From Acidimicrobiales bacterium (GTDB lineage Bacteria; Actinomycetota; Acidimicrobiia; Acidimicrobiales; Aldehydirespiratoraceae), in contig JAWPML010000001.1 in NCBI GenBank assembly GCA_033344915.1, forward strand, positions 1,608,369 to 1,672,368: DNA of 64,000 nucleotides, written 5' to 3'. Both the position numbers and the translations under genes were made by a program. Every line of letters starts with the position of its first letter. The stretch's first letter is position 1. Under the pieces are notes generated by a model that made no database searches, had not been told where the DNA came from, and saw only the letters and a program-made list of their open reading frames with translations. Positions 44,549-61,172 of this stretch are shown here, in pieces.

Positions 44549-46030
44549 ATGGGAGTCGTCATCGCCATCGACGCCGGCACCACGGGTGTGCGGTCGTTCG
44601 CCATCGACGAGCGGGGCGCTCCCCTCGGCTTCACCTACCGCGAGTTCGAGCAGCACTTCCCCCGTCCGGGTTGGGTCGAGCACGACGCGGAGGAGATCTG
44701 GGATGCGGTCGTGTCCACCCTCGCCGAACTGGTCGACACGCTCGACCAGCCGATCGCCGCGATCGGCATCACCGATCAACGCGAGACCGTGGTGCTCTGG
44801 GACCGGCGCACCGGCACCCCCCGGCATCGCGCCATCGTCTGGCAGGACCGGCGGACGGCGACGCGCTGCGAGCAGCTGGAGGCCGATGGCGCCCGGGACC
44901 TGGTCCGCTCGACCACCGGCCTCGTGCTCGATCCGTACTTCTCCGGCACCAAGGTCGAGTGGCTCCTCACCGAGGGCGGGGTCGAGGCCGACGACGATCT
45001 GCTCTTCGGGACGATCGACTCCTGGCTGGTGTGGAAGCTGACCGGGGGCACCCACGTGACCGACGGCTCGAACGCGAGCCGCACCATGCTCTTCGACATC
45101 CGGACCGGCGACTGGTCGCCCGAGATGTGCGACCTGCTCGGCGTGCCGATGGGCATCCTCCCCGAGGTCCGGCCGTCATCGGGCCGCTTCGGGGTGACCA
45201 CCGCCGACATCCCGACCGGCGCGGGCATCCCGATCAGCGGCATTGCCGGCGACCAGCAGGCCGCCCTGTTCGGCCAGGCGTGCTTCTCGCCCGGACAGGC
45301 GAAGAACACCTACGGCACGGGCTCGTTCGTGCTGATGAACGTCGGCACCGCCTGTCCCGAGCCGGTCGAAGGCCTGCTCACCACCGTCGCCTGGACGCTC
45401 GACGGCCCGAACGGAGCGGAGACCACCTACGCCTACGAGGGCGCGATCTTCGCGACCGGCGCGGCGATCCAGTGGCTGCGCGACGGTCTCGGCATCATCG
45501 ACGACGCCGCCGAGACCGGCCCGCTCGCCGAGTCGGTCGACGACACCGGGGGCGTCGTCTTCGTCCCCGCCCTCGCCGGACTCGGCTCGCCCCACTGGGA
45601 TCCCCGGGCCCGGGGCACGATCGTCGGACTCACGCGCGGCACCGGCCGCGCCGAGCTCGTCCGGGCGACGATGGAGTCGATGGCGTACCAGTCCCGCGAC
45701 GTCGTCGACGCCATGAGCGCCGCATCGGGCACGCCGGTCACCGAACTGCGCGTCGACGGTGGCGCCTCGGTGATGGACGTGCTCCTCCAGTTCCAGGCCG
45801 ATCAGCTCGGGGTGCCCGTGGTGCGGGCGTCCGTGCCCGAGACCACGGCGCTCGGCGCCGCCTATCTCGCCGGGATCGCCGAGGGCGTGTGGTCCGGCAC
45901 CGGCGACGTCGCCGCCAACTGGACCGCGGATCGCACGTTCACGCCGAACGATGACCGCACGGCCGCCGACGCCGCGTACGCCCGGTGGACCCGGGCCGTG
46001 GAACGCAGCCGCGGGTGGGACCTGGACTAG
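44549..46030 (+). CDS. glpK: Glycerol kinase
   Basis: The 493-residue FGGY kinase has IAIDAGTTGVRSFAID, ITDQRETVVLWDRRTG, SGIAGDQQAALFGQ with the catalytic Asp, and KNTYGTGSFVLMNVG. It phosphorylates glycerol to glycerol-3-phosphate. A short segment reading TACPEPVEGLLTT replaces the usual GEKxVxSxxGLLTT; its DNA (45350-45373) looks like a widespread REP sequence. The stop overlaps that of the convergent aminotransferase in the palindrome CTAG. Confidence 0.96.
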   Translation: MGVVIAIDAGTTGVRSFAIDERGAPLGFTYREFEQHFPRPGWVEHDAEEIWDAVVSTLAELVDTLDQPIAAIGITDQRETVVLWDRRTGTPRHRAIVWQDRRTATRCEQLEADGARDLVRSTTGLVLDPYFSGTKVEWLLTEGGVEADDDLLFGTIDSWLVWKLTGGTHVTDGSNASRTMLFDIRTGDWSPEMCDLLGVPMGILPEVRPSSGRFGVTTADIPTGAGIPISGIAGDQQAALFGQACFSPGQAKNTYGTGSFVLMNVGTACPEPVEGLLTTVAWTLDGPNGAETTYAYEGAIFATGAAIQWLRDGLGIIDDAAETGPLAESVDDTGGVVFVPALAGLGSPHWDPRARGTIVGLTRGTGRAELVRATMESMAYQSRDVVDAMSAASGTPVTELRVDGGASVMDVLLQFQADQLGVPVVRASVPETTALGAAYLAGIAEGVWSGTGDVAANWTADRTFTPNDDRTAADAAYARWTRAVERSRGWDLD

Positions 46031-47205
46031 CCGAGCTTCGTGAGCGCCCGGCCGAGGTTGCGGGTGGCCTGGTTGATCCGCTGCTCGTTCTCGATCAGCG
46101 CGAAGCGCACGTGGCCCTCGCCGCCCGGGCCGAATCCGACACCCGGCGACAGCGCCACGTCGGCTTCCCGCACGAGCATCGAAGCGAACTCGACGCTCCC
46201 CATCTCCTCGTAGGGCTCGGGGATCTTCGCCCAGGTGAACATGGTGCCGCGCGGGGCGGGGACGTCCCAGCCGATCCGGGCGAGCCCGTCGATCAACGTG
46301 TTGCGCCGGCTCTCGTAGACCGCCCGGGCCTGATCGGGGTACTCCGGCGCCTCGTTCATCGTGACCGTGGCCGCGATCTGCACCGGCTGGAAGGTGCCGT
46401 AGTCGAGATAGCTCTTGAGCTTCTGGAGGGCGGCGACGATCTTCGGGTTGCCCACCATGAACGCCACGCGCCAGCCCGCCATCGAGTAGCTCTTGGTCAT
46501 CGAATACAGCTCGACGGCGACGTCCTTCGCTCCCTCGGCCTCGAGGATCGACGGCGGCATGTACCCGTCGTAGCCGAGGTCGGCGTAGGCGAAGTCGTGG
46601 ACGAGGATGACGTCCTTCTCGCGGGCGAAGTCCACGACCCGCTGCATGAAGTCGAGGTCGACGCAGGTGGTGGTGGGGTTGTGCGGGAACGAGAGCACGA
46701 TCACCCGCGGCCTCGGCCACGAGTACTCGAAGCGATCCTGCAGCGTCTCCAGGAAGGTCTCCTGGTCGTTGCTGAGCGGCATCTCCCGCACATTGGCCCC
46801 GGCGAACAGCGGGGCGAACAGGTGGATCGGATACGACGGGGCCGGCACGAGCACCGAATCGCCCGCTTGCAGCAGCACCCACATCAGGTGGCTGAACCCC
46901 TCCTTCGCGCCGATCGTGTTGATGACCTCGGACTCGGGGTCGAGGGTGACGCCGAAGCGGCGCTCGTAGAGCGTGGCGACCGCCTCGCGCAGCTTCGGGA
47001 TGCCCCGGCTCGACGAATAGCGGTGGTTGCGGGAGTTCCGCGCGGCCTCCACGAGCTTCTCGACGGCGATGTCGGGCGACGGCAGGTCCGGATTGCCGAA
47101 GCCGAGGTCGATGACGTCTTCGCCGGCTCGACGTGCTTCGATCTTGAGCGAATCGATGATCGTGAACACGTAGGGCGGTAGGCCGTTGATGCGACGGAAC
47201 TCCAT
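46027..47205 (-). CDS. Class I aminotransferase, AlaC-like
   Basis: The 392-residue PLP enzyme has RINGLPPYVFTIIDSLK, GFGNPDLPSP, YSMTKSYSMAGWRVAFMVG with the PLP-binding Lys (SMTKSYS), and GVGFGPGGEGHVRFALIEN with the substrate Arg. The start motif and length are those of AlaC-type glutamate-pyruvate transaminases. A TAGCCT box 6 nt before the ATG suggests its own promoter. Confidence 0.93.
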   Translation of the reverse strand: MEFRRINGLPPYVFTIIDSLKIEARRAGEDVIDLGFGNPDLPSPDIAVEKLVEAARNSRNHRYSSSRGIPKLREAVATLYERRFGVTLDPESEVINTIGAKEGFSHLMWVLLQAGDSVLVPAPSYPIHLFAPLFAGANVREMPLSNDQETFLETLQDRFEYSWPRPRVIVLSFPHNPTTTCVDLDFMQRVVDFAREKDVILVHDFAYADLGYDGYMPPSILEAEGAKDVAVELYSMTKSYSMAGWRVAFMVGNPKIVAALQKLKSYLDYGTFQPVQIAATVTMNEAPEYPDQARAVYESRRNTLIDGLARIGWDVPAPRGTMFTWAKIPEPYEEMGSVEFASMLVREADVALSPGVGFGPGGEGHVRFALIENEQRINQATRNLGRALTKLG

Positions 47206-47234: not shown

Positions 47235-49214
47235 CTAGACGAGAGTTCCGACCTCGACCACCGAGGCGACGTCCGAGCCGACCTCGGCGATCCACTCGTC
47301 GGCCCCGTGCCCGTCGCCGATGACGAGGATCTGCACGTCGTCGGGCAGGACGGCGAGCCGGTCGAGCGTGCTGGCCGGCGCATCGCCCATGACCACCACG
47401 ACGGGGATCGGACCGGCGACACCGCGGGGAACCCGATCGGCAAGGGCGGCGACGGCGTCGGCCGACGCGCGGCCCTGGAGCCGGCGGCGGGCGAGGTCGA
47501 CCAGCACCTGGGCGCTCTCCCGCTGGACGAGCCGGTCGTCGTGCTCTTCGGCGAGGTTGAGTTCGGTCGCGGCGAGCACGTGCAGCTGCAGTCGGGCCTG
47601 CACGACCTCGCCGAGGGCGGCGCGGCTGGCGGCCACGTCCTTCTCGGCTTCGCGCACGGCGGCCCGTTCGCCGTCGAGGCGATCGACCCTGCTGCCGTCG
47701 CCGAGCGATTCGAGTGCATCCAGTTCCTCGGCGGCCCGCTCCCGATCGCGGAGGATGCGCACGGCCAGATCGTCGGCCGCGACGAGCACGCCGAGCCACG
47801 ATTCGGCCAGGGCGACCACGGCCTGGTCGCTGGTGAGCGCCTCGTGGCCGACCACACCCGCTTCCGCCATGGCGACCTGGAGGTGCCGCATCCCGGCGTC
47901 ACGATCGACGCCGACCGAATCGGCATCGACGACGAAGGCCTGGAGCGCTTCGGTGAGGAGGTCCGGCGAGGCGTCGTCTCCGCCGGCGAGGGGATCCTCG
48001 CCCAGCAGCGAGACGGCGTGCTCCTGCGCCTTCTCGATCGCGGTGAGGACGTCCTGCAGCTCGGTGTCGCGCTCGAGGCGGGCCATCAGCTCGGCCCATT
48101 CGAGTTCGGCCGCCTCCAGCTCGTGCTGGGCGACCTCGTACTCGATGAGGGCTTCGGGCGGAACGGCGGCCATGCCGTTGCCCATGCGGAACGCCGCCCA
48201 GGTCGGATAGCCGAGGGGCTCGAGTGCGTCCTGGAGCGCTTTCTCCGCTGCATCGAACGCCGCTCGGGTGGTGGCGCGTCGCACGCCCCTCCCGACGCGA
48301 CCCTCGGCGTCGATCATGGTTTCGTGCAGGACCTCGAGTTCGGCGACCTCGGCCTCGGTGACCTTGCGGGGAACGGCGGCGTCCTCCGCGGCGCGGGCCG
48401 CCCGCCGGGCATCGTCGAGGCGGGCGGCGACGAGCTCGGTGCCGCCGCCGGCGGCCTCCATGCGGGACTCGAGCCCGAGCAGCCGTTGATGGAGGCTGAT
48501 CCATGCCTGGGCCAACGCCGCGGCTTCGGGGCTCGGTGCGGTCGCACCGGAACCTCTCGCGATGGCCGACCGTGCCGTGGCCGCCGCAGCGGCGAGCGCG
48601 GGACGGTCACCGGTCGGTAGGCCGGCCAGCGTCTCGTCGAGTTCGGTGATCGTCGCGGTGAGTTCCTCGATCCGGGCGGGGATGTCCTTCATCCCCGTCC
48701 ACGGATCCGGCCGGTCGGCGCGGCGAGAGGAGCGCACGAGCTGCCCGTCCGCCTGGTCGAGTCGCGTGCTCGCCTCCGGATCGACCTGCCCCTTCGACGA
48801 GCGCAGGTGCGCGACCATCTGCGAGCGGACGTTGCCGCTGGCGGCGAGTTCCTCGGCGATCTCGGTGATCCGGCTGTCGAGTTCGTCGAGCTTCTGTTGT
48901 GCCTCGTCGAGGCCCGTCCGCTGTTCGGACGGCGCGGTCGGGCCCTCGCCGGGCTCGGGCAGGCTCGCCGCGTCGATGATCAGGGCGCTGTCGGCCGTCT
49001 CACCGAGGCGGGGAATCGCTTCGGTGAGCGAGACGTTCCCGCCGTCCATCTCGACGATGCCCGTCCAATCGGGCATCTCGCCGAGGGCGACGTCGTGGAC
49101 CAGGCCGACGATGGCGACGCGCGCCGCGGGATCCAATCCCCGCAACCACGTGATCCGCGGATGGAGGCGAAAGGACCCACGGTCGGGAGCAGGCCGTAGT
49201 TCGACGAAGCGCAT
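47235..49214 (-). CDS. Large SMC-like coiled-coil protein lacking a recognisable P-loop
   Basis: The 659-residue protein begins MRFVELRPAPDRGSFRLHPRITWLRGLDPAARVAIVGLV. The first strand and turn resemble the N-terminus of SMC/RecN-type ABC ATPases, but where GxxGxGKS should stand it reads GLDPAARVA. Long Ala/Glu/Asp helices (about residues 100-590) look like two antiparallel coiled-coil arms. The last 70 residues, with IPVVVVMGDAPASTLDRLAVLPDDVQILVIGDG, resemble an ABC C-terminal lobe without a clear Walker B Glu. I infer a degenerate SMC-like protein. It is the third gene of an operon with a lipid-binding-fold protein. Confidence 0.8.
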   Translation of the reverse strand: MRFVELRPAPDRGSFRLHPRITWLRGLDPAARVAIVGLVHDVALGEMPDWTGIVEMDGGNVSLTEAIPRLGETADSALIIDAASLPEPGEGPTAPSEQRTGLDEAQQKLDELDSRITEIAEELAASGNVRSQMVAHLRSSKGQVDPEASTRLDQADGQLVRSSRRADRPDPWTGMKDIPARIEELTATITELDETLAGLPTGDRPALAAAAATARSAIARGSGATAPSPEAAALAQAWISLHQRLLGLESRMEAAGGGTELVAARLDDARRAARAAEDAAVPRKVTEAEVAELEVLHETMIDAEGRVGRGVRRATTRAAFDAAEKALQDALEPLGYPTWAAFRMGNGMAAVPPEALIEYEVAQHELEAAELEWAELMARLERDTELQDVLTAIEKAQEHAVSLLGEDPLAGGDDASPDLLTEALQAFVVDADSVGVDRDAGMRHLQVAMAEAGVVGHEALTSDQAVVALAESWLGVLVAADDLAVRILRDRERAAEELDALESLGDGSRVDRLDGERAAVREAEKDVAASRAALGEVVQARLQLHVLAATELNLAEEHDDRLVQRESAQVLVDLARRRLQGRASADAVAALADRVPRGVAGPIPVVVVMGDAPASTLDRLAVLPDDVQILVIGDGHGADEWIAEVGSDVASVVEVGTLV

Positions 49215-49258
49215 CGGATCCCCATCGGCACGCAGCGTGGCGGATCAAGCCGGATGAC

Positions 49259-49510
49259 TCAGGATTCTGTGGGACCCTGGTCACCTTCGGCGGTCGCCCC
49301 GTCCGGGTCGGCCTGGGACGCGAACCCGCCGAGAAACGCCTCAACCACGGATCGTCCGCTCTCCACCGCGCCGGCGAACGCACCGGGTTGCTCGATCACC
49401 CGCTCCGTCGCTTCGATCAGGCGTTTGAGGGAGTCGACGACCGCCCCGGCGGCCTCCCGCAGCTCGTCGAACTGGTCGTCGCCGGGCTCGCCGTGCGGAT
49501 CGTCGTTCAC
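49259..49510 (-). CDS. Small acidic helical protein
   Basis: The 83-residue product (GTG start, overlapping the upstream stop by 4 nt) has one amphipathic helix, ELREAAGAVVDSLKRLIEATERVIEQP, and an acidic tail. I know no family for it. Its fixed place between the SRPBCC gene and the coiled-coil gene suggests an accessory role. Confidence 0.72.
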   Translation of the reverse strand: MNDDPHGEPGDDQFDELREAAGAVVDSLKRLIEATERVIEQPGAFAGAVESGRSVVEAFLGGFASQADPDGATAEGDQGPTES

Positions 49511-49959
49511 GACCCTCGGGACTCGACGTAGGCCGTGAACGACTCCAGGGCCGACCGAACGATGCGAGCCTCGGCCCGGCGCTTCACGAAGCCGGGAAGC
49601 GGCACCGAGAGGTCCACGGCCAGGTGGTACACGACCTCGGTGGCGTTGGGGTCCGACGCGACCGGCAGGAACTCGTATTCGCCGTCGAGCCGGCGGGTGA
49701 CGTCGCCCCGCTGGAGCCGCCACGCCAACCGTCGGGGGTTGGAGCCGTAGAAGTAGCGCAGCGTGTAGGTGGTGCTGCGACCCATGGCCGCGGCCCGGAA
49801 TTCCACGTCCACCGCGCGGCCGTCGTCGTCGCGCGACAGGATCCGTGCCATCTTGATGTCGGTTGCCCAGTCCGGGTAGCTCTCGAAGTCGATCGCCGCC
49901 TCGTAACAGGCATCCGGCGACGCCATGATCGTGGTGCGTTCCGTTGTCTGATCGACCAC
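49507..49959 (-). CDS. SRPBCC (polyketide cyclase/START-like) protein
   Basis: The 150-residue protein starts TTERTTIMASPDACYEAAIDFESYPDWATDIKMARIL, typical of the coenzyme-Q-binding/START-like fold in actinobacteria, and ends with a long C-terminal helix. Such proteins bind lipids or other small hydrophobic molecules. GGGAGG lies 5 nt before the GTG start, and a TAGGGT box about 27 nt upstream can serve as -10. Confidence 0.88.
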   Translation of the reverse strand: MVDQTTERTTIMASPDACYEAAIDFESYPDWATDIKMARILSRDDDGRAVDVEFRAAAMGRSTTYTLRYFYGSNPRRLAWRLQRGDVTRRLDGEYEFLPVASDPNATEVVYHLAVDLSVPLPGFVKRRAEARIVRSALESFTAYVESRGS

Positions 49960-49998: not shown

Positions 49999-50421
49999 TC
50001 AGCCGCCGCGGGGCGCGAAGGTGCCGTGCCGCGCACACCACAGCCCCGCCATTCCCAATCCCCAGACCGGCACGAGGATGCCGAACGCGAGAGCGGTGAA
50101 GATCCGGATCGACGCCGTGGTGAACGCGATCACGAGCTGGAGCGCCAGCGAGCCCATGAGATGCGCCTGGACCCGCCGGGGCGCCGACCCGGCACCGAAG
50201 TACAAGCCACCGATCCCGATCGCCTCCTCGGTGCTGCGGGCCACGGCGATGAGGAACGCCCAGAACATCGCGATCGCCCCGGCCCCGAAGAGCACCAGTG
50301 AGACGATCACCACCGGCGCCCCGAGCGAGTCCGGATCGATCGTCGAGACGCCGGCCGCGATCGCGAACACGGCCGTGCCCGTCCACGAGGCGGCGATGAT
50401 GCGGCCCCCGGGCTCGATCAT
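49999..50421 (-). CDS. Four-helix membrane protein of unknown function
   Basis: The 140-residue protein has four predicted membrane segments (about 7-25, 35-60, 85-105, 110-130) and no motif I recognise. It overlaps the glycosyltransferase stop by 4 nt (ATGA), so it is probably made with it. Confidence 0.75.
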   Translation of the reverse strand: MIEPGGRIIAASWTGTAVFAIAAGVSTIDPDSLGAPVVIVSLVLFGAGAIAMFWAFLIAVARSTEEAIGIGGLYFGAGSAPRRVQAHLMGSLALQLVIAFTTASIRIFTALAFGILVPVWGLGMAGLWCARHGTFAPRGG

Positions 50422-51548
50422 GGATCCATCATCGCCGCGATCGCCTCGTGCAAGCGATCGGCGAGCCGGTCGTAGTCGAACTCGGTCTCCACCCGCGCCC
50501 GGCTCGCCACGGCCATCGCCGCCCGCCGCGCCGGATCGTCGAGGAGGGTGCTGATCGCGTCCGCGACCGCCCGCTCGTCGGTCGGGTCGTCGACGATGAG
50601 GCCCGTCTCCCCGTGGGCGACGGCTTCGTGCGCTCCCCCACTTCGTCCGGCTACCTGGGGGACCCCCGCCGCGGCCGCCTCCACGAAGATGATGCCGAAG
50701 CCCTCCTGCTCGAGCCCGCCCCAGCGGGTGCGGCACAGCACGGAGAAGACATCGCCACAGGCGTAGAGGTCCGGCATCGAGGCGTCGGGGAGGCGCCCGA
50801 GCATCGTGACCGGCGCATCGAGTTCGTCGACGATGCCCTGGAGTCGCTTGGTGTCGCGCCCGCTGCCGGAGATGGCGACGTGGACGTCCGGGTGGCGCTC
50901 GCGGACGTGAACGCTCGCCCGGATCAGCACGTCCATGCCCTTGCGGGGCACGAGGCGACTGGCCGACGTGACGAGGGGCCCCTCGGTCGGCAGGCCCAAC
51001 CGGGCGCGCGCCGCGGTGCGTCCGGCCGCATCGAGCGGCGTGATCCGGGAGGTGTCGACGCCGGGCGGGACGATCGCGATCGGCAGGTCGCGGCCGACGG
51101 CTCGTTCGGCCTCCGCCGCGGCGTAGCCACCGGCGGAAATCACGCCCACGGCGCCCTTGAGCACGCGATTCATGAGCTGCTGGGTGACCGGCAGACGGCC
51201 GGGGATGGTGACCTCGGCACCGTGGAGCACGACCCCGTAGGGCACGTCCAGATGGGGTCCGATCAGGCCGACCGGCACGGCCGGGTCGAGTATGACGAGG
51301 TCGATGTCGTGCTCCGCGATGAGCTGGTTGACGCGCCGCACGAGCACGGGCTGGGGCAGCAACCACGGCTCCGGGCTGCGGATCACCGTGAACGGTTGGG
51401 CGGCGTCGAACTCGTCGGTGCCCTCGTAGGGCGTGGTGTGGACGACGAACTCGTCGGGCGGCAGCCGGCGCCAGAGCTCCCACAGGTAGCTCTGGATCCC
51501 ACCCACCTTCGGCGGGAAGTCGTTGGTCACGAGGAGGTGACGCGGCAC
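50418..51548 (-). CDS. GT4 glycosyltransferase, PimB-like mannosyltransferase
   Basis: The 376-residue GT-B enzyme opens LLVTNDFPPKVGGIQSYLWELWRRLP, very like PimB (GDP-mannose-dependent alpha-1,6 mannosyltransferase acting on phosphatidylinositol mannoside). The donor site has RLVPRKGMDVLI and the EX7E block EGFGIIFVEAAAAGVPQVAG. The acceptor is inferred. The GTG start has TAGGGT 8 nt upstream, overlapping the queG stop. Confidence 0.87.
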   Translation of the reverse strand: MPRHLLVTNDFPPKVGGIQSYLWELWRRLPPDEFVVHTTPYEGTDEFDAAQPFTVIRSPEPWLLPQPVLVRRVNQLIAEHDIDLVILDPAVPVGLIGPHLDVPYGVVLHGAEVTIPGRLPVTQQLMNRVLKGAVGVISAGGYAAAEAERAVGRDLPIAIVPPGVDTSRITPLDAAGRTAARARLGLPTEGPLVTSASRLVPRKGMDVLIRASVHVRERHPDVHVAISGSGRDTKRLQGIVDELDAPVTMLGRLPDASMPDLYACGDVFSVLCRTRWGGLEQEGFGIIFVEAAAAGVPQVAGRSGGAHEAVAHGETGLIVDDPTDERAVADAISTLLDDPARRAAMAVASRARVETEFDYDRLADRLHEAIAAMMDP

Positions 51549-51556
51549 AGCGGCGG

Positions 51557-51562
51557 ACCCTA
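51557..51562 (-). promoter_or_regulatory. -10 element of leaderless GT4 gene
   Basis: TAGGGT on the minus strand ends 8 nt before the GTG and contains the queG stop codon. Confidence 0.5.
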
Positions 51563-52645
51563 CGCCCGATCGAGCTCGAGACGCACCGCGGGATCGCGAT
51601 CGTCGGCCACATCGTCGAGGAGGGCGTCGAGCCCGAGCCGCCGCGCCGCCCAGACCGCGTGGGACCGCACGAGCGGCCGGTCGTCGGCCAGCGCGTCCGC
51701 CAACCGCTCGGCAGTGCGGGAATCGGCGGCGTCGCCGGTGTTGCCCAGCACGACGAGCAGGTTGCGCCGCAGGTAGGCGGGGTCACGGTCGGGGATGTAC
51801 CACCGGCCGAGTCGCGCCAGCAGGGTGTCGTCGTCGCTCGCGAGGGCATCGAGCACGGGGACCCAGGCACCGTCGTCGCCGGCATCGGAGGGGCGGCGGC
51901 GACGGATCTGGTTGGGCGGACAGACATCCTGACAGTCGTCGCAGCCGTAGAGACGGTCGCCGAGCGCCTCGCGGAACTCCACGGGGAACGGGCCCTCCGC
52001 CTGCAGCAGCCAGGCGAGACACTTCCGCGCGTCGATCACCCCGGGGGCGACGATCGCACCCGTCGGGCAGCCGTCGAGACACTGCCGGCAGGTGCGACAG
52101 CCGTCCTCGACCGGCGCGGCCGGCTCGAAGGCGATCGGGGCATCGGTGAGGACCGAACCGAGCACCACGAGGCTGCCGACGCCGGGCACCAGGACGTTGC
52201 TGCTCTTGCCCCACCAGCCGATGCCAGCCCGGTGGGCGGCGGCCCGATCGACGAGATGGTTCTGGTCGGCGAGCACGATCGCCCGGTGACCGGCGTCGCG
52301 CAGCGGCTCGGCGACCGCCTCCAGCGCGGCCCGCAGCACCGCGTAGTGGTCCTCCCACGAGTAAGCGGCCACCCGCCCGTTGGGCTGGGACGGATCCGGC
52401 GCCGGTGCTTCCCGCTGGTAGTCGTAGGCGCCGACCAGCAGGGTCCCGGCGCCGGGCAGGCTGCGGGCCGGATCCGTCGAACGGGCCGGATTGCGGTAGG
52501 TGAACTGCATCCCCCCGTGGAGACCGTCCGCCTTGCGCGCCGTCAGCGACTCGAGGACGTCGTCGAAGGGGTCCGCCGTCGCCGCCCCGAACGCGCAGAG
52601 GCCGTGCTGTCGGCCGATCGCCTCGAGCTCGGGGAGCGTGATCAC
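51560..52645 (-). CDS. queG: Epoxyqueuosine reductase
   Basis: The 361-residue cobalamin-dependent Fe-S enzyme performs the last step of queuosine synthesis on tRNA. Two [4Fe-4S] clusters are visible: CRTCRQCLDGCPTGAI plus a following Cys, and CDDCQDVCPPN. The catalytic DQNHLVDRAAAHRAGIGWWGKSSNVLVPGVGS region and a short C-terminal HEAT-like repeat (LADDRPLVRSHAVWAARRLG) are present. The GTG at 52645 starts VITLPELEAIGRQHG; upstream ATGs are out of frame. Confidence 0.94.
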   Translation of the reverse strand: MITLPELEAIGRQHGLCAFGAATADPFDDVLESLTARKADGLHGGMQFTYRNPARSTDPARSLPGAGTLLVGAYDYQREAPAPDPSQPNGRVAAYSWEDHYAVLRAALEAVAEPLRDAGHRAIVLADQNHLVDRAAAHRAGIGWWGKSSNVLVPGVGSLVVLGSVLTDAPIAFEPAAPVEDGCRTCRQCLDGCPTGAIVAPGVIDARKCLAWLLQAEGPFPVEFREALGDRLYGCDDCQDVCPPNQIRRRRPSDAGDDGAWVPVLDALASDDDTLLARLGRWYIPDRDPAYLRRNLLVVLGNTGDAADSRTAERLADALADDRPLVRSHAVWAARRLGLDALLDDVADDRDPAVRLELDRA

Positions 52646-52674
52646 CGCGCCATGGTGACACGCCCTGCGTGCGC

Positions 52675-60810: not shown

Positions 60811-61172
<362 letters not shown>

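Follow-up and report, generated by a model that had tools for sequence, protein, structure and literature searches.

A protein of 659 amino acids (aa), encoded on the minus strand of a 64,000-nucleotide stretch of contig JAWPML010000001.1 from an Acidimicrobiales bacterium, was analysed computationally. This stretch, referred to as the window, is a piece of a 4.48-Mb single-contig genome. It was concluded that the SMC-like protein is probably a pseudo-ATPase derived from an ancestor of the AAA_27/SMC/Rad50 class and acts as a static scaffold. Its identity as a pseudo-ATPase relative of AAA_27 can be stated with high confidence, and the scaffold role is considered reasonably likely. There is good support for the predicted fold and for the loss of the Walker A motif; the cellular role is what we infer.

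The initial annotation had reported that the protein lacked Walker A, and this was confirmed: residues 26-33 read GLDPAARV at the place of GxxxxGK[ST]. The motif was then counted in stop-to-stop open reading frames (ORFs) from the collected loci, mostly of the same order and class, that matched both the N-lobe and the C-lobe models at 1e-2. This census yielded 45 two-lobed ORFs, 44 of which were distinct after one duplicate was dropped, with open frames of 201-854 aa. Another 26 ORFs with a C-lobe match and no N-lobe match were excluded; they were truncated at locus ends, of the AAA_27 type or under the N-lobe threshold. GxxxxGK[ST] was found nowhere in the sequences of the 44 two-lobed proteins, so that the relatives with intact P-loops, which the initial annotation had considered as evidence for a merely broken copy, did not appear. 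The window protein as a broken copy of a normal ATPase was rejected on the same count (P-loop in 0 of 44 relatives). No P-loop intermediate was met in the census, which is no proof that none exists. The Walker A lysine position was occupied by Arg in 37 proteins, by Ala in three, and by Gln, His, Lys and Thr in one each. The first glycine of the motif was kept in 38 of the 44, the Ser/Thr position after the lysine held Ser in two, and the glycine-rich loop was gone. Walker B-like pairs were recognized by pattern in 18 of the 44 (8 DE and 10 DD), often in distant members, and an ABC signature of the LSGG type was absent from the C-lobe alignment of the family. In the window protein, the Walker B acids are absent, the C-lobe strand ending in VVVVMGD, and there is no zinc hook because the protein contains no cysteine.

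The descent of the family was studied by comparison of profiles. A search of the phylum with the family profile found long proteins, inside and outside the class, that were matched through the C-lobe only. Seven of these carried P-loops of the form GxNE[SA][GA]K[ST], and all four P-loop proteins scanned against Pfam matched AAA_27 (PF13514, the YhaN-like family) above the cut-off. The AAA_27 comparison set consisted of these seven, without L186, an AAA_27-like ORF that is only partial. The C-lobe profile matched AAA_27 with a probability of 98.2 and an E-value of 6.2e-14 over 70 columns (2.9e-14 with clean rows), and the N-lobe profile with a probability of 85.2 and an E-value of 6.1e-6. In the N-lobe alignment, G-M-S-D-R-E-R-Q was placed on GPNESGKS, and the arginine fell on the lysine. 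The scores, 97.5 for the C-lobe and 44.7 for the N-lobe, compare with maxima of 21.3 and 17.1, respectively, in two sets of 60 column shuffles. Both lobes thus matched AAA_27 far above shuffled controls, in keeping with the initial assignment to SMC-type families, and they are distantly homologous to the lobes of AAA_27 ATPases that carry the P-loop and Walker B.

In a tree, the 44 P-loop-less and seven AAA_27 rows were separated at one branch with support of 100/99; a tree of the C-lobe only supported the same split at 98, or at 91 without three long rows. The tree was unrooted, and therefore a single loss of the P-loop is allowed by it and not established. The window protein had no match to Pfam AAA_27 at E <= 1, and AAA_27 was not among the 25/31 Pfam families listed for 21 members. 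Broader searches found matches in 50 of 395 genomes and, at 1e-8, in 14 of 396, which were not used as family counts because they included matches at the C-lobe alone, among them some to AAA_27 proteins. Six of the latter 14 genomes lay outside the class and matched at the C-lobe only. Two AAA_27-type proteins, L180 and L182, had the P-loop NESAKS, with Ala for the last Gly, and were otherwise intact.

Scanned directly against Pfam and NCBIfam, the window protein had no match above a cut-off, in agreement with the earlier description of the family as uncharacterised. Among 21 members, Pfam matches were scattered and weak (best E-value 0.001, to MscS_porin in one member), and the best NCBIfam match was to SMC_prok_B (E-value 2.8e-6, 4 members); these matches were perhaps obtained via coils. 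In PDB sequences, phmmer found 0 matches for the window protein, and the full-family profile found mostly coiled-coil proteins, the best being SMC1 (E-value 4.6e-5), matched in the coil. With the C-lobe profile, 57 PDB sequences were found at E <= 10, of which 51 were of the ABC class by our count. Three of these alignments were inspected, and each matched at the Walker B/D-loop segment.

The AlphaFold (AF2) model of the window protein had a predicted local distance difference test score (pLDDT) of 86 and a predicted template modelling score (pTM) of 0.62, and both ends of the chain were brought together. Helices span residues 95-143, 463-504 and 514-579 around a compact helical middle, and the arms are short; the long coiled-coil arms of the initial annotation were therefore overstated. 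In VIA alignments using both ends, the model matched RecF-ATPgammaS (Z 7.4, 3.5 A over 128 residues), PCAT1 (Z 7.0, 3.4 A over 122) and the Geobacillus SMC head (Z 6.6, 4.9 A over 153). The model of the relative L100 matched the Thermotoga maritima SMC head 1e69 with Z 12.1, at 3.8 A over 179 residues. For this relative, 48 of the best 50 VIA rows were chains of the SMC/Rad50/MukB/RecF/ABC type by our count, three of the 48 being matched by coiled coil alone. Foldseek gave one match below 0.001 for the window model, to Rad50, with a template modelling score of 0.14, and the argument from structure is therefore based on the VIA alignments. In the models, the N- and C-lobes come together as a single predicted head of the ABC type, with the window model weaker than that of L100. 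This prediction agrees with the SMC/RecN-like ends noted from the sequence, and the predicted fold was not of a kind unrelated to ABC heads.

The distribution of the gene and the selection acting on it were examined. The protein was matched in 22 of 100 genomes, including its own: 16 of the family of the window's organism and 6 of other families of the order. The relatives that carried names were metagenome-assembled genomes of Acidimicrobiales or Acidimicrobiia, or actinobacterial ones named less precisely, and the family is spread over the Acidimicrobiia-type class. The closest of these named relatives, Acidimicrobiales bacterium DHS20C19, was 88% identical across residues 323-659. The ratio of nonsynonymous to synonymous differences (pN/pS) was 0.14 against the nearest of six relatives and 0.36-0.56 against the other five, and substitutions were concentrated at third codon positions. 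Against two relatives, pN/pS was 0.36 and 0.45 for the SMC-like gene, 0.35 and 0.37 for QueG, and 0.17 and 0.12 for the SRPBCC gene. It follows from the matches in 22 genomes and this pattern that the 659-aa ORF is not a chance frame, and the gene is under purifying selection. The gene was absent from genomes G007, G008, G016 and G025 among those searched, and the copies in the draft assemblies G002 and G028 contained stops or lay in pieces. The G002 copy (contig 13, L095:10001-11963), from the same genus, had stops and frame changes.

The three ORFs of the initial annotation, for an SRPBCC protein, a small acidic protein and the 659-aa protein, were all found on the minus strand where it had placed them. 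Its three-gene operon was correct as to these genes and too narrow as to extent, since the co-directional run comprises, in order, QueG, the GT4 glycosyltransferase, a small putative membrane protein, SRPBCC, the small acidic protein, the 659-aa protein and the aminotransferase. The genes of the run are separated by at most 44 bases or overlap by 4 bases, as do the SRPBCC stop and the start of the small acidic protein. In most of the 34 related loci compared, a large part of the run is found again, together with GlpK and PFK further out. Anti-phage defence was rejected as a function since none of the neighbours named points to it. The coordinates are collected in the table below.

Table. Features of the gene run in the window (positions counted from the first nucleotide of the window)
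Feature	Position	Strand	Basis and remarks
Aminotransferase class I/II	46027..47205	-	Downstream of the SMC-like gene in conserved order
SMC-like protein, 659 aa	47235..49214	-	ATG start; ORF, profile and model evidence; N-lobe about residues 1-85, helical arms and middle about 95-579, C-lobe about 600-659
Vestigial Walker A	49116..49139	-	Sequence and alignment
Small acidic protein, 83 aa	49259..49510	-	GTG start; 19 D+E against 5 K+R; no Pfam match
SRPBCC (Polyketide_cyc2) protein, 150 aa	49507..49959	-	Pfam Polyketide_cyc2, E 1.3e-11, 45.4 bits, above the cut-off of 27.4
Small putative membrane protein	49999..50421	-	Hydrophobic stretches judged by eye; no Pfam match
GT4 glycosyltransferase	50418..51548	-	Pfam; gene run
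QueG-like epoxyqueuosine reductase	51560..52669	-	Start codon chosen by us; gene run

The small acidic protein may resemble Streptomyces DUF5304/SCO2127, and there may also be a resemblance to the mycobacterial Rv2184c-Rv2188c locus. Outside the run, an RNase P RNA of bacterial class A was found at 60819-61167 of the window on the plus strand (246.6 bits).

The synteny with the SRPBCC gene was conserved: in 19 of the 22 genomes, the SMC-like gene lay downstream of it on the same contig and strand. As for the other three, the SMC-like gene was split over contigs in G068, where the N-terminal match adjoined SRPBCC, and in G062, where a look-alike N-terminus recognized by eye did so; in G005 the contig ended. 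SRPBCC itself was matched in 92 of the 100 genomes against 22 for the SMC-like protein, and therefore the link is real and strongly conserved but one-way. In G007, G016 and G025, SRPBCC and the small protein were present without the SMC-like gene. In outer lineages, an ArsA/GET3-type ATPase was found in 17 of 55 sequences searched, some of the loci overlapping; it lay directly after SRPBCC in 16 (the loci include L138, L143, L145 and L072) and at a contig edge in one. The L138 copy matched Pfam ArsA_ATPase with an E-value of 3.3e-82 and had an HSP20-like tail; the window contained no such ATPase. In view of the excess of SRPBCC, its occurrence with the small protein alone and the ATPase in its wake in outer lineages, the earlier suggestion that coupling to SRPBCC hints at a lipid-linked scaffold is not supported in that form. 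A specific SRPBCC partnership was rejected because SRPBCC persists without the SMC-like gene.

Other forms of the protein were also observed. The window's own genome encodes a 494-aa paralogue on the minus strand (L066:2280-3764, within G000:C1:3935500-3940500) with a P-loop-less N-lobe, hydrophobic middle segments and a Walker B-like C-lobe reading PLVLDDSLNGLD. Hydrophobic middle segments were present in 7/7 membrane-form paralogues and in 6/7 AAA_27 proteins, and the membrane-form group of seven, with L058, joined the AAA_27 branch (96/88). In genomes G073 and G421, 191-aa head-only versions lie between SRPBCC and the aminotransferase gene (L046:1501-2073 and L048:1222-1794). Their lobes are joined by about 20-25 residues without a coiled coil, and they gave sub-threshold SMC_N matches (E-values 0.028 and 0.07). 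A further family member (L044:436-2541, minus strand) has a long proline-rich stretch and, after the C-lobe, a cysteine-rich, possibly zinc-binding tail. A search of the window's genome with AAA_27 gave three matches, to ORFs of 1165, 538 and 300 aa, of which the first two were taken from their length to be SMC and RecN.

The family was compared with known systems. Like AAA_27, it has an N-lobe, a helical middle and a C-lobe in this order, and both head lobes align. However, 7/7 AAA_27 proteins have a P-loop of the form GxNExxK[ST] and the signature LSxG, whereas the family has no P-loop in 44/44 and no such signature in its C-lobe alignment. Since the defining ATPase motifs of SMC/Rad50/RecN proteins are missing and there is no Pfam AAA_27 match at E <= 1, the window protein was not filed as a member of these groups and is regarded as a pseudo-ATPase relative. 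It shares with SMC, Rad50, RecN and RecF a predicted ABC-type head formed from both ends, with a predicted antiparallel helical arm, but the window copy lacks Walker A, the signature, the Walker B acids and a zinc-hook cysteine, and its arms are short.

Literature searches for the family and for P-loop-less SMC proteins gave no title describing the family among the matches listed, subscription journals being mostly outside the scope of that search. The nearest published analogue found was SMCL-1 of Caenorhabditis, an SMC-class head that is predicted to lack ATPase activity, has neither coil nor hinge, binds condensin and is apparent in some Caenorhabditis species only (PMC5373644). The head-only form described above likewise has no coil or hinge. 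Unlike SMCL-1, in which Walker A is retained and the catalytic glutamate of Walker B is missing, the present family has lost Walker A, and it is bacterial and spread over a class. The Archaea-specific SMC-related proteins (ASRP, NF045487) are also SMC-related with a coiled coil, and 8 of 21 members matched them weakly (best E-value 0.011). ASRP possess both Walker motifs, A and B, and most of them a zinc hook (PMC9389158), whereas the present family has no Walker A.

A possible mode of action may be outlined. Without Walker A, canonical binding of Mg-ATP and a cycle of engagement and hydrolysis would not be expected, so that the head and helical arms would form a static, nucleotide-independent scaffold or adaptor. 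The protein probably acts as a homodimer or together with another product of the conserved SRPBCC/glycosyltransferase locus. To judge from the membrane-hairpin paralogue, the ancestor may have been tethered to the membrane; this paralogue and the neighbouring genes are the only indications of action at the envelope. More tentatively, and with somewhat less than even confidence, a clade-wide pseudo-SMC superfamily may be proposed. It would have arisen once from membrane-anchored AAA_27 ATPases by a Lys-to-Arg change and loss of the loop, and would have diversified into coiled-coil, membrane-hairpin and head-only nucleotide-free forms, the coiled-coil form acting as a fixed clamp in the SRPBCC/glycosyltransferase envelope locus.

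Several points weigh against the interpretation of the protein as a pseudo-ATPase scaffold with an ABC-type head. The window model was built on 13 sequences and that of L100 on 10. The Z-scores of 6-7 for the window model lie in the range that VIA calls common, and the rows above and among its head matches are other kinds of coiled-coil protein. The L100 model, with a pLDDT of 80, had a low pTM of 0.34, and its Z of 12.1 is below the value of 13 under which VIA advises caution for long helices. In the window protein, the C-lobe has degenerated and lacks the Walker B acids. When the profiles were compared over their whole length, only the C-lobe was aligned; the best PDB match of the C-lobe profile, RecN, had an E-value of 0.025, and none was significant alone. 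The N-lobe profile found 9 PDB sequences, none of them an ABC ATPase, with low E-values that are sums over repeats. Since the relatives were collected, mostly from the order and class, with profiles built from P-loop-less members, a P-loop intermediate could have been missed. Several close genera do not have the gene, and two relatives have it in broken form, so that it is dispensable there. The scaffold role, the partner and the membrane association of the window copy are inferred.

Four other explanations were considered. It is unlikely that the protein is a regulatory subunit whose dead head pairs with that of a genuine ATPase, such as SMC or RecN, and inactivates or adjusts it, as has been proposed for nematode SMCL-1. 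The genome does contain the 1165- and 538-aa ORFs taken for SMC and RecN, both matching AAA_23, and the 191-aa head-only proteins (P0007 and P0008) resemble SMCL-1 in having no coil or hinge. However, the locus is a conserved metabolic and glycosyltransferase run with no SMC or RecN among the mapped neighbours, and SMCL-1 is a mirror image, with Walker A intact and the catalytic glutamate of Walker B lost. Rather unlikely is a nucleotide sensor in which the arginine and the remaining loop still bind, but do not hydrolyse, a nucleotide or other phosphate ligand, with the arms changing upon binding. Retention of Arg in 37/44 and of the first Gly in 38/44 is more than free decay suggests, and several relatives have Walker B-like pairs; yet the arginine may be structural, Ser follows the lysine position in only 2/44, the glycine-rich loop is gone, and the window protein has no Walker B acids.

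The remaining two explanations concern the status of the gene and of the protein fold. That the gene is decaying and heading for loss is very unlikely: its absence from the four genomes and the damaged copies in G002 and G028 would be consistent with decay, but the damaged copies lie in draft assemblies, and pN/pS, at 0.14 for the nearest relative, is otherwise similar to that of QueG. Moreover, the loss of Walker A is common to 44/44 proteins and is therefore old. An unrelated coiled-coil protein with ends that are merely SMC-like is highly improbable, even though Pfam gives no hit at E <= 1 between the window protein and SMC, AAA_23 or AAA_27, the PDB sequences found with the N-lobe profile include no ABC protein, and long helices easily yield structural matches. 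Against this stand the matches of both lobes to AAA_27 profiles far above the shuffles, the ABC-class identity of 51/57 C-lobe PDB sequences with the Walker B/D-loop segment in three alignments, and the sub-threshold SMC_N matches of head-only relatives that have no coil.

SMC-class proteins are understood as ATP-driven machines. In the pseudo-ATPase family described here, the head fold has been kept and the grip on ATP lost across the class members examined, yet the family has diversified, which represents a natural separation of scaffold from motor. Surveys that require Walker motifs miss such proteins. In the ASRP study, 13 of 111 candidates were dropped because they were highly diverged or lacked Walker A or Walker B and signature motifs (PMC9389158), and the lack of a Pfam or NCBIfam name for the present family may be due to such practice. 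With this family, the capabilities of an SMC head in the absence of ATP can be put to the test, and the finding would offer a first handle on the conserved gene run around SRPBCC.

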